Source: a virus
Length of the DNA: 29,016 bases
IMG/VR virus record: IMGVR_UViG_3300017750_000069
Coordinates: 1-29,016 of that record
Strand: one strand, 5' to 3'
Made by a program: the position numbers and the translations under genes. Numbering within the stretch: the stretch's first letter is position 1; each line of letters starts with the position of its first letter. This document shows positions 7,162 to 24,276 of the stretch, piece by piece. The notes beneath the pieces were generated by a model, which made no database searches, was not told the origin of the DNA, and was given only the letters and a program-made list of their open reading frames with translations.

Positions 7162-7872
7162 ATGTCAGAAGAACAGGCCGCACCAGCCAGCGACACCCTG
7201 CTAGATCAAGCCGAACCTACTCTAAGTGATGGAGAGTATTTTCTAACTGATGGCATTAAGGGTACAGGTGATACACCAGAGTGGTACAAAGCAGACAAGT
7301 ACAAGTCTGTTGCAGAACAAGCCAAAGCCTATACTGAACTAGAAAAGAAGTTTGGTGGTTTTAAAGGCGCTCCTAAAGATGGATACACACCCCCTGAAGG
7401 CATTGAAAAAGACGATGCTCTGTACCAAGAACTAGAAGCCTTTGCTAACAAGACTAACATGAGTGCTGATGCATTTGGTGAGGCATGGGAGTTATTAACT
7501 GCACAAGAACAAGCAGTACAAGAAGTCAGTCAAGAAGAAGAACTTGCTAAACTAGGCGATAACGCGCAAGAAAGAATTAAGACTGTTGAAGGGTTTATGA
7601 AAAATAACCTTGATCCAGAAACTTATGAACACGCGCGAGGCTTAGTAACTACTGCTGATACCATTGAGTTAGTTGAAATGCTAGTTAGGGCTACTGCTCC
7701 TGCTAAACTTCCAATGGAAGGTGGGCATAACCCTCAAGGACTATCTTGGGAATCTATTGAAACTGAAATGTTTAAGAAAGATGAACAAGGACAACTCCTT
7801 AGAAGTACCAACATAGACCATGAACGCAAGATTCAAAAAATGATGGAAGCGTGGGGTGGTTCAGGTAATTGA
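7162..7872 (+). CDS. Scaffolding protein
   Basis: A 236-residue acidic, Glu/Lys/Gln-rich helical protein placed directly before the major capsid gene. The middle has the common scaffold pattern EWYKADKYKSVAEQAKAYTE (60-79) followed by KKFGGFKGAPKDGY. The C-terminus is charged and helical (NIDHERKIQKMMEAWGGSGN), typical of the part that contacts capsid subunits. It would direct prohead assembly and then leave. AAGGA upstream supports the start. Confidence 0.85.
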   Translation: MSEEQAAPASDTLLDQAEPTLSDGEYFLTDGIKGTGDTPEWYKADKYKSVAEQAKAYTELEKKFGGFKGAPKDGYTPPEGIEKDDALYQELEAFANKTNMSADAFGEAWELLTAQEQAVQEVSQEEELAKLGDNAQERIKTVEGFMKNNLDPETYEHARGLVTTADTIELVEMLVRATAPAKLPMEGGHNPQGLSWESIETEMFKKDEQGQLLRSTNIDHERKIQKMMEAWGGSGN

Positions 7873-7898
7873 TTAACATGGGGTAAAAGGTGTATAAT
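7869..7898 (+). promoter_or_regulatory. Promoter upstream of the major capsid gene
   Basis: TTGATT (7869-7874), an 18-base spacer and a perfect TATAAT (7893-7898) lie in the 154-base gap before the capsid gene. An inverted repeat ATCCA-TGCAC-TGGAT (7897-7911) and an outer GGGGTA/TACCCC pair (7880-7885/7911-7916) overlap the -10. A capsid-specific promoter would fit the need for very many copies. Confidence 0.5.
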
Positions 7899-7928
7899 CC
7901 ATGCACTGGATACCCCTTTCTTAAAAGG

Positions 7929-7968
7929 CCCAGTAAATTTAGGTTGAATGCTGACCAATTTTACTGGG
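7929..7968 (+). other. Long hairpin in the major capsid leader
   Basis: CCCAGTAAA (7929-7937) pairs perfectly with TTTACTGGG (7960-7968). The loop holds a further GGT/ACC pair. There is no T-run behind it, so it is more likely a 5' leader structure (stability, processing or translation control) than a terminator. The capsid ATG follows 58 bases later with GAGGA as ribosome binding site. Confidence 0.6.
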
Positions 7969-8026
7969 TACTCAGCTTAAACCTTGAAAAAACTTTTTAT
8001 TATTACTCTTTTTCGAGGAAACTATT

Positions 8027-8854
8027 ATGAGTAAGAATCTATCTGCCGTAGCGTCGATTGAATTTGACAGCATGGTAAAGCACGCTTATGCAACAAAAGG
8101 GCTATTGAAGCCTGCCGTTACTGTACGTAACAATGTAGTTGGTGACACTTACAAATTCCGTAACATGGGTAAAGGTCTAGCTAACCAGAAGTCTACTTCT
8201 GATCTAGTAACTCCTATGGACGTAAGTTTTGATTTCGCTATTGCTACTCTACAAAACTGGAATGCTCCAGAATACACTGATATATTTGACCAAGCTGAAG
8301 TTAACTTCGACGAGAAGCAAGAACTAGCAGACACTATCGCTGGGGCTCTTGGCCGTCGTTGTGACCAACTCGTTATTGATGCTATGGATGCCGCTTCTCC
8401 TACAACTATTCTTCACGGTTCTGCCGCTTTGAGCATGGCTAAAGTTGTTGAAGCACAGGTTTCACTACGGGCTCAAGGCGTTCCTAACTCTAATTTGTTT
8501 GCGGCAATTAACGCAAAAGGATTGGGTGGTCTTCTTGATGATTCAAAAGCAACATCTTCTGATTTCCAAACTGTTAAAGCACTTGTAACTGGTGACATTA
8601 ACAGCCTAGCTGGATTTACTTTTGTTGTTCTTGATGATCGTTCTGAAGGTGGTTTGACTGTTGCTTCTAACACTGTTGATTCATATTTCTTCCATCGTGA
8701 TGCTGTTGGCCTTGCTATTGGTATTGATATGAAGACTTCTGTTGATTACGTGCCAGAGCGAACTTCATTCTTGTGTAACGGAATGTTGAAAGCTGGATCT
8801 GTTGTACGCGATGTTAGCGGTTTAATCAAAGTAGAATATAAAGATAACGTATAA
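8027..8854 (+). CDS. Major capsid protein
   Basis: A 275-residue protein directly after scaffold. The N-terminus (SAVASIEFDSMVKHAYATKG) and the core, with FDFAIATLQNWNAPEYTDIF near 66-85 and LGRRCDQLVIDAMD near 108-121, match small HK97-fold capsid proteins of BPP-1-like podoviruses. It should form the icosahedral shell. Expression is likely high: own promoter and leader upstream, strong GAGGA site, and a strong terminator two genes downstream. Confidence 0.88.
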   Translation: MSKNLSAVASIEFDSMVKHAYATKGLLKPAVTVRNNVVGDTYKFRNMGKGLANQKSTSDLVTPMDVSFDFAIATLQNWNAPEYTDIFDQAEVNFDEKQELADTIAGALGRRCDQLVIDAMDAASPTTILHGSAALSMAKVVEAQVSLRAQGVPNSNLFAAINAKGLGGLLDDSKATSSDFQTVKALVTGDINSLAGFTFVVLDDRSEGGLTVASNTVDSYFFHRDAVGLAIGIDMKTSVDYVPERTSFLCNGMLKAGSVVRDVSGLIKVEYKDNV

Positions 8855-23110: not shown

Positions 23111-23460
23111 GATACTTTAATATAAAAGATTTCGATTGTCAGGAAACAGGCAACAATGAAATGTCAGAAGATTTCCTCAATAAACTGGATGACTTACGGC
23201 ACATCTGTGGCTTCCCCTTTATTATCACCAGTGGTTACAGAGATCCATCCCATAGCATTGAGGCAAGAAAAACAAAGGCAGGTAAAAAAGCAGGAACCCA
23301 TGCGCAAGGGATCGCGGCAGACATACGAATCAATAATGGAAATGAAGCCTACCAAATTATTAAGAACGCACAGTCAATGGGATTTAATGGTATAGGCGTA
23401 GCAAAGACTTTTATTCATGTAGACACTAGGCAGACTATGCCTGTTATGTGGACGTACTAA
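23107..23460 (+). CDS. Endolysin, M15 peptidase (D-Ala-D-Ala or L,D-endopeptidase type)
   Basis: A 117-residue protein of the zinc peptidase M15 family. SGYRDPSHS at 42-50, H65 and D72 in THAQGIAADI, and H104 and D106 in FIHVD are the zinc and catalytic residues. It would cut peptide cross-links in peptidoglycan. The start at 23107 is chosen because its ATG overlaps the upstream TGA; the longer frame from 23026 would add 27 residues that come from reading the small membrane gene in another frame. No signal sequence, so it needs the holin. Confidence 0.88.
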   Translation: MRYFNIKDFDCQETGNNEMSEDFLNKLDDLRHICGFPFIITSGYRDPSHSIEARKTKAGKKAGTHAQGIAADIRINNGNEAYQIIKNAQSMGFNGIGVAKTFIHVDTRQTMPVMWTY

Positions 23461-23682
23461 TTACTTAGGTTGTCTGCTGTACTGCTTTCCTGCTTTAGTA
23501 TCTCTTCTTTTCTTAGCTGTAGTTCTTGCATATTGGGCATCAGTCAATGCGGCAATTCTTTTTGTAGGTAAGTATCTCTCACCTGTAGCTTTTGGACCTT
23601 GAGTGCTAGGCTTACCAGACTTAGTTCGCCACTTCTGTTTACCCCATTTAAGTAAAGACTTTTGTGACTTACGCATAGCCAT
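23461..23682 (-). CDS. Small basic protein of marine-phage type, 73 aa
   Basis: Very rich in Lys, Arg and Gln (KSQKSLLKWGKQKWRTKSGK at 5-24; TTAKKRRDTKAGKQ near the end). I recognise the KSLxxWxKQKWRTKSGKPS / GERYLP pattern from marine phage genomes, but no function. It may bind DNA or RNA. It starts at a TAATG overlap with the upstream gene and converges with the endolysin gene with no gap and no terminator between them. Confidence 0.7.
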   Translation of the reverse strand: MAMRKSQKSLLKWGKQKWRTKSGKPSTQGPKATGERYLPTKRIAALTDAQYARTTAKKRRDTKAGKQYSRQPK

Positions 23683-23855
23683 TAGCGGTATCCTCCACCA
23701 GCCGCTTTATAACGTCTAGCTAACAACTGGGCTTTACGTGCTGACCATTGCCCTGAACGACCACCCTTGTTCCCAGCCTTAATAGACTCGAACATACTCT
23801 TCCGCATGGTAGGCTTGGTGTAGTTACCAGCTTCATTGACTCGTGACTTTGCCAT
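23682..23855 (-). CDS. Small basic protein, 57 aa (DUF5872-like)
   Basis: The frame from ATG 23855 to TAA 23682 encodes MAKSRVNEAGNYTKP and later GNKGGRSGQWSARKAQLLAR and AAGGGY. The GGxxGQWSARKAQ...YxxxGGGY pattern is that of the family I know as DUF5872, found in phages, protists and large viruses; its function is unknown. TAATG overlaps at both ends. Highly basic. Confidence 0.75.
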   Translation of the reverse strand: MAKSRVNEAGNYTKPTMRKSMFESIKAGNKGGRSGQWSARKAQLLARRYKAAGGGYR

Positions 23856-23953
23856 TATTTTCTCAACATTGATTTTTTCTTTCTAGCTGGTTTAGTTTCT
23901 TTTTTCTTTGGTCTACCAACTTTACTACCGTATGTACCTTTACCGTAAGGCAT
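23855..23953 (-). CDS. Tiny basic protein, 32 aa
   Basis: MPYGKGTYGSKVGRPKKK followed by a Lys/Arg-rich tail ending KKKSMLRK. The MPYGKGTYGSK start is one I have seen repeated among marine phage proteins. It has a strong ribosome binding site (AGGAGAATCAA before ATG 23953), and its stop overlaps the next start as TAATG. The GRPKKK core is AT-hook-like, so DNA binding is a fair guess. Confidence 0.7.
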   Translation of the reverse strand: MPYGKGTYGSKVGRPKKKETKPARKKKSMLRK

Positions 23954-23962
23954 TTGATTCTC

Positions 23963-24241
23963 CTACCATTTACTTTTGTTTGCCCAGTATGCCGCAGACA
24001 TTACACCTTTTGCAATGTTCTTAGCATGACGAGCCTTGAATGATTTACGTCTAGCTTTATCTTTCTTTGACTGAGGGTTAGACCCTGCACCAGACACACC
24101 TTGTTGACCGTAACGAATAGTCTTTACTTTGTCACCAGACTTAGCAACAACAACATGAGATTTTGTTGGATGGTTGGGCGTTCTCTTAGGTTTGTTGTAC
24201 CCAGATACACCGATTCTTTTGAGAAGACTCTTCTTTTCCAT
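23963..24241 (-). CDS. Small basic phage protein, 92 aa (DUF6321-like)
   Basis: MEKKSLLKRIGVSGYNKPKR at the start, KSHVVVAKSGDKVKTIRYGQ in the middle and SFKARHAKNIAKGVMSAAYW near the end match the family I know as DUF6321. Function unknown; very basic, so nucleic acid binding is likely. The frame is open upstream to 24286, but that would start inside the terminator of the neighbouring operon, so ATG 24241 is chosen. No ribosome binding site of normal kind; see the -10 box at 24248. Confidence 0.75.
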   Translation of the reverse strand: MEKKSLLKRIGVSGYNKPKRTPNHPTKSHVVVAKSGDKVKTIRYGQQGVSGAGSNPQSKKDKARRKSFKARHAKNIAKGVMSAAYWANKSKW

Positions 24242-24247
24242 GCCCCA

Positions 24248-24253
24248 ATTATA
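24248..24253 (-). promoter_or_regulatory. Promoter -10 box abutting the small-basic-protein operon
   Basis: On the minus strand TATAAT is followed by six bases (TGGGGC) and the ATG at 24241. A normal start seven bases past the box would be the A of that ATG, giving a leaderless mRNA. TTGCCC lies 19 bases upstream as a poor -35. It stands right after the terminator of the upstream leftward operon, where a new promoter would be needed. Confidence 0.45.
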
Positions 24254-24255
24254 CC

Positions 24256-24276
24256 AAAAAAAGCCCTCGAAAGGGC
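24256..24276 (-). terminator. Rho-independent terminator of the leftward replication operon
   Basis: On the minus strand GCCCT-TTCG-AGGGC (24276-24263) is followed by seven T residues (24262-24256). The TTCG loop and clean T-run make it a clear terminator for transcripts coming from 27616 leftward. Confidence 0.88.

Follow-up and report, generated by a model that had tools for sequence, protein, structure and literature searches.

Positions 24241 to 23461 on the minus strand of the window, by which we mean the whole stretch of 29,016 nucleotides analysed here (IMG/VR virus record IMGVR_UViG_3300017750_000069), carry four consecutive leftward genes, P1 to P4, whose products are very small (92, 32, 57 and 73 aa) and very basic; the locus raises the question of whether these proteins form one system and, if so, what that system does. 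The genes, and two candidate signals ahead of them, are given below, with letters for the sequence profiles used in our survey of other phages (A, B, C and D for P1, P2, P3 and P4, and the companions E, typified by GLYANIHAK..., and F, the canonical DUF6321).

24263..24276, minus strand: terminator-like stem GCCC-TTTCGA-GGGC followed by seven T, separating P1 from the leftward genes that precede it; weak (one site against 1.1 expected).
24248..24253, minus strand: TATAAT, possible -10 element with no good -35, right behind the terminator-like site and 6 nt ahead of the P1 ATG.
23963..24241, minus strand: P1, 92 aa, ATG start; module A, phrog_7595; likely remote relative of DUF6321.
23855..23953, minus strand: P2, 32 aa; module B, MPxGKGTYGSKxGRP and then a Lys-rich tail.
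23682..23855, minus strand: P3, 57 aa; module C, phrog_17747; putative counterpart of the DUF5872 N-terminal half, with a predicted two-helix fold.
23461..23682, minus strand: P4, 73 aa; module D, phrog_14910; putative counterpart of the DUF5872 C-terminal half, with a helical mini-fold confidently predicted in a homologue.

The frames, lengths, junctions and Lys/Arg richness described in a first-pass annotation of this DNA were all confirmed. P1 and P2 are separated by a 9-nt gap with AGGAG ahead of P2, and the P2/P3 and P3/P4 junctions are TAATG overlaps; lysine plus arginine against aspartate plus glutamate stands at 24/3, 13/1, 14/2 and 22/3 in P1 to P4, respectively, with pI values of 11.07, 10.94, 11.39 and 11.41. 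P1, P3 and P4 match their PHROG families, none of which has an assigned function, over nearly their whole length (4.8e-39, 4.7e-32 and 2.3e-26, respectively), and pooled pN lies below pS in comparisons with relatives for all four (pN/pS pairs of 0.23/0.79, 0.27/0.63, 0.21/0.79 and 0.30/0.76); on these grounds P1 to P4, P2 included, are real genes under purifying selection. That genes of this size are easily missed, as the annotation also remarked, is evident from the P2 homologues, which are unannotated in most matched phage records, and from the equally unannotated P1 homologue of SIO1.

Terminase, portal, capsid, tail and lysis genes run rightward in the window, with the leftward genes at its right end; the terminase shares 51% identity with its counterpart in Burkholderia phage BcepC6B and 38% with the one in Pelagibacter phage Hodr. 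P1 to P4 adjoin the leftward replication genes, outside the late/head cluster, and are convergent to the late genes, an orientation that is unusual among the loci surveyed. The convergent endolysin gene ends at 23460, directly against the P4 end at 23461, so that the two stop codons are immediately adjacent; no terminator was found between them, and late and leftward transcripts would therefore collide. A promoter scan near P1 gave nothing above chance and did not select the TATAAT listed above. The position beside the replication genes, the strong positive charge of all four proteins and the possibility that the cassette has its own promoter would each suit a role in host takeover within the cell, where P1 to P4 would bind the host nucleoid or RNA, unpackaged, and the cyanophage virion proteins considered below would have borrowed their domains for another use.

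A survey of genomic neighbourhoods, as the first-pass annotation had proposed, found the four families co-occurring rather than scattered. At 79/80 P3 loci P4 follows immediately downstream in the same orientation, and P3 lies upstream of P4 at 72 of the 77 P4 loci, making these two a near-obligate pair. Where at least 4 kb could be read on both sides of a P3-P4 locus, 25 loci carried a P1-type gene only, 17 a DUF6321-type gene only, none both and 7 neither (nominal Fisher P of 5e-8 for the mutual exclusion of A and F, which is not a true probability since the loci are related). D occurs in one reading frame with A (L054, L228) and likewise with F (L161, L114), and these fusions, together with the exclusion, indicate that A and F have a common slot and a common fusion partner. 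Fusions also join B to E (L207) and C to D (L361, L255), and the order (P1 or DUF6321)-P2-P3-P4 recurs in different phages. In an independent sample drawn with the P2 signature, another module lies within 1.5 kb of 61/120 genes, and 119/119 module neighbours share the strand of P2. As the samples consist of the queries' nearest relatives, these percentages hold for the sampled loci rather than for all phages. The pairing of P3 with P4, the same-strand clustering, the kept order and the fusions bear out the earlier suggestion of a single system: P1 to P4 form a portable, interchangeable gene cassette.

Searches with tblastn located P1 in 51 phage records, from cobaviruses, HMO-2011-type phages, cyanophages and SIO1, and P3 and P4 in 17 and 19 records, respectively, the sets overlapping for the most part. 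Environmental viral contigs yielded at least about 600 candidate stretches each for P1, P3 and P4, and on this evidence the families are very common in aquatic viruses. By comparison, 84,980 bacterial and archaeal genomes held only 59 P1 loci, of which the titles shown are almost all of metagenome-assembled genomes, with no evident cultured isolate; few loci, nearly all in such assemblies, make P1 look viral and probably reflect lytic phages binned with cells.

The annotation had also counted DUF6321-like and DUF5872-like proteins among the four, and in both cases the kinship is better seen through relatives than in the window proteins themselves. P1 alone scores just 16 bits against DUF6321 (PF19846; E 0.02), below the gathering cut-off of 28.5 bits. 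Nevertheless, the comparison of profile A with profile F gave a probability of 40%, where mismatched pairs gave 0.1-0.2%, and L063 is an intermediate that combines features of both and is matched by both profiles; with the common slot and fusion partner, this makes it likely that P1 is remotely akin to DUF6321, with the C-terminal part in common. No PDB chain matched P1 or canonical DUF6321 in a sequence search. A further match of P1 (E 3.4e-6) is to the central part of phrog_220, annotated as ‘minor head protein and DNA pilot’. This is a hint that some larger head proteins contain P1-type domains; no such protein was located. In the Puniceispirillum phage HMO-2011 (L002), an annotated frame of 345 aa (7605-8642) overlaps the P1 homologue at 8467-8760 on the same strand, and the upstream part of that frame is probably non-coding.

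P3 and P4 reached no Pfam family, DUF5872 (PF19197, gathering cut-off 27.5 bits) included, but the proteins in equivalent slots elsewhere do: the C and D slots of L171, L174, L184 and L190 match parts of DUF5872, most of them above the Pfam cut-off (e.g. N-terminal half in L174, 43.0 bits, and L171, 40.8 bits; C-terminal half in L190, 56.6 bits), and phage C72C1, which has a P1 of 81% identity, shows the same division, its C slot matching the N-terminal and its D slot the C-terminal part of DUF5872. The profile links G to C and H to D had drifted in iteration and were retested with separated profiles and mismatched controls. Profile comparison gave 44% for the N-terminal part of DUF5872 with P3 and 41% for the C-terminal part with P4, against 0.1-0.2% for mismatched pairs; these probabilities (40-44%, P1 included) are modest because the domains are short, and the slot and fusion evidence adds weight. 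P3 and P4 thus appear to correspond to the N- and C-terminal halves of DUF5872, with the window proteins themselves below the Pfam cut-off. Matches of P4 to designed ‘Cake’ repeat proteins in the PDB covered 17 residues and were dismissed as repetition artefacts. A protein of 454 aa (L089:5761-7125) has a P4 module at its N-terminus and, around a SDSIPARLSDGEFVMTKKA motif in its C-terminal part, matches to tail tape measure PHROGs.

The P2 signature occurs once in the window and not at all in shuffled sequence, and was found in 27 phage records, mostly within unannotated DNA; its GRP core is conserved in 24/24 members of a sample that was not selected for GRP. P2 was considered as an AT-hook (PF02178) and rejected, since the Pfam model matches 1/23 members at E 1.2 and the window P2 not at all. 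P2 offers no usable tryptic peptide, which would explain how such proteins escape virion proteomics. In Pelagibacter phage Lederberg an annotated frame of 35 aa (L006:28007-28114, minus strand) is similar to longer P2-type proteins in their C-terminal part (LTxKQKTLPxALKKKI), and this gene may be mis-started or degraded.

In aquatic phages the cassette is usually found in the company of head and DNA-packaging genes. Its commonest identified neighbours are portal, major capsid protein (MCP), TerL and TerS genes; the density of TerL, portal and MCP genes falls three- to sixfold with distance (0.13-0.15 per flank-kb over the nearest 3 kb, 0.02-0.04 at 6-9 kb), and 65/65 of those near the cassette, and 62/62 around P2, share its strand. 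Some viral contigs have F-B-C-D directly before terL, with terS upstream where visible, others have A-B-C-D between portal and scaffold, and the P2 gene of T7-like marine phages sits, with E and F, between the scaffold and capsid genes or just after the capsid gene. Such embedding at most loci runs counter to a purely intracellular takeover, as do the related modules in virion-detected proteins described next, and we regard that explanation as rather unlikely. The same positions, between terS and terL, portal and scaffold, or scaffold and MCP, could also be those of assembly or packaging factors, i.e. proteins that help terminase, portal or scaffold during head filling and are not retained in quantity in the mature virion.

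Evidence from mature particles comes from T4-like cyanophages. The cyanomyovirus protein T4-GC0119 (S-E7 AYR02000, Syn9 gp114, S-SCSM1 gp029; phrog_727), a hypothetical protein in the main text of Sullivan 2010, is encoded near terS; it holds a P3-type module (6e-14) and, at the C-terminus, a DUF6321 module (down to 3e-24), together with a weak P4-type module (iE 1.7e-4 and 3.7e-3). Direct detection is provided by phage S-CREM2, for which a published mass-spectrometric table of virion proteins lists gp137, with a DUF6321 module (4 unique peptides), and gp160, with a P3-type module (7 peptides), the counts being for whole long proteins rather than placed on modules (PMC10665884); gp160 also has a P4-type module, recognised by eye. 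In S-SCSM1, 45 proteins were found in CsCl-purified particles (PMC9602691). Its gp029, with P3-type and DUF6321 modules, is labelled ‘virion protein’, a label that is also on RegA, a translational repressor, and absent from TerL, and which we therefore read as marking those 45; by this reading gp029 would be in the virion. Mass spectrometry of virions does not distinguish head from tail or inside from outside, and the text of the cryo-EM paper on P-SCSP1u mentions neither mass spectrometry nor cassette genes. The presence of homologous modules in mature, CsCl-purified virions argues against assembly factors that are left behind, and we consider such a role improbable.

The DUF6321 module starts with (G/S)AAW; in 9/9 T4-GC0119 proteins read (among L245-L247, L249, L250 and L424-L429), a glutamate stands immediately or almost immediately ahead of this start, and in several a glutamate also precedes the P3-type module (e.g. 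EISE-GKKDACYHKVK). This could reflect cleavage of a polyprotein by the prohead protease, although glutamate is abundant in the linkers and the boundary was set post hoc. In S-CREM2 gp160 and in the T4-GC0119 proteins of S-E7 and S-SCSM1, a further recurrent short module, CWxGYEKKGxxxxFGKxYxxCVKK, separates the P4-type module from the P3-type or DUF6321 module.

Alignments of P1, P3 and P4 with their relatives contain invariant residues, which point to specific folds rather than mere protamine-like tails. For the P4 module of L054, AlphaFold2 predicted a small helical fold with high confidence (pLDDT about 90, residues 10-75), and for P3 a two-helix fold (mean pLDDT 79); the P1 half of the P4-P1 fusion was modelled with low confidence (pLDDT about 40-78), and no fold was read from it. 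Fold searches with the P4-P1 fusion and P3 models found no PDB match, which is no proof of a new fold, and a viral library gave only apparent unnamed homologues. Cysteines number none in 126, two in 24 and one in 2 of the A modules, none in 12 and two in 48 of F, none in 169 and two in 11 of D, and none in 175 and two in 2 of C, a pattern suggesting that each disulphide comes or goes as a whole. Counts of 0 or 2, hardly ever 1, are as expected in an oxidising medium and would fit disulphide cross-linked domains of an outer decoration or of the tail, and S-SCSM1 gp029 does adjoin a tail fibre gene; the modules, however, are very basic and short, without beta-rich adhesin character, those of podophages have no link to tail genes and P1 to P4 of the window have no cysteines at all, so that we give this alternative very little credence.

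The clustering with terminase, portal and capsid genes and the homologous modules in virion-detected cyanophage proteins together favour residence in the virion. Of the functions first suggested for these proteins, i.e. nucleoid takeover, DNA condensation in the capsid or RNA binding, this supports a packaged form of action, but does not separate condensation from takeover after injection. Residence is supported through the homologues in cyanophages, and P1 to P4 themselves are probably packaged too. On balance we think it probable, by analogy with the internal proteins of phage T4, that P1 to P4 are a virion-packaged set of small DNA-associated proteins. We infer a location inside the head, ejection into the host and late expression; DNA binding is predicted from charge and the GRP core. 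P1 to P4 would be produced jointly as late proteins, become incorporated into the head at assembly or packaging and associate with the packaged DNA, and would probably accompany it into the next host, with a possible further role early in that infection. Within the set, P3 and P4 may act as a single unit, as the two halves of a DUF5872-type protein, with P1 in the canonical DUF6321 slot and P2 as a short DNA-contacting partner, its conserved GRP core set in a Lys-rich tail; the putative separate parts here would be the same modules that T4-like cyanophages string together in long chains.

With little role generally granted to proteins in the packaged DNA of tailed phages, T4 stands out as the recognised exception. 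Its IPI, IPII and IPIII are small basic head proteins, present in hundreds of copies, that bind DNA at low salt, are ejected into the host and are dispensable in the laboratory (PMC9026906). P1 to P4 would resemble them in way of working, with no claim to family membership: the T4 proteins bear an N-terminal capsid-targeting propeptide cleaved by the prohead protease and are poorly conserved, whereas P1 to P4 begin almost at the conserved module, their podophage is not known to have such a propeptide or protease, and their cassette is modular, ordered and widely shared. T4-GC0119 is similar in uniting P3-type, DUF6321 and weaker P4-type modules near terS, but does so in a single long chain with linkers, with DUF6321 in place of P1 and without P2. 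Basic proteins also bind the packaged genome of the chlorovirus PBCV-1 (PMC3281028), although these belong to other families (a kinase with a basic adaptor domain and an MC1-like protein). Against DUF6321 and DUF5872, P1, P3 and P4 are themselves below the Pfam cut-offs; P1 shares a slot and a C-terminal part with the former, and P3 and P4 appear to correspond to the two halves of the latter.

DUF5872 occurs in algal giant viruses. It is conceivable, though we hold it as a tentative and somewhat doubtful extension, that unrelated aquatic tailed phages, and perhaps algal giant viruses, trade an ancient kit of small basic virion domains that dress the packaged genome and accompany it into the host; podophages would encode each domain in a gene of its own, and T4-like phages would join them in multi-domain chains, perhaps cut by a protease. 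In the literature searched, with most subscription papers outside it, DUF6321 is not named and DUF5872 is named once, without a function (PMC12085832); the families are known singly as of ‘unknown function’, and we found there no description of a unified modular system. The DNA packaged by tailed phages is generally held to owe its neutralisation to ions and polyamines, proteins playing little part (PMC3281028). If many types of marine phage do share a conserved and interchangeable set of basic virion proteins, that view would need revision for the most abundant phages; such a set also offers a testable function for several Pfam and PHROG families that have none assigned, and may provide an evolutionary bridge to the DUF5872 and DUF6321 proteins of giant viruses.
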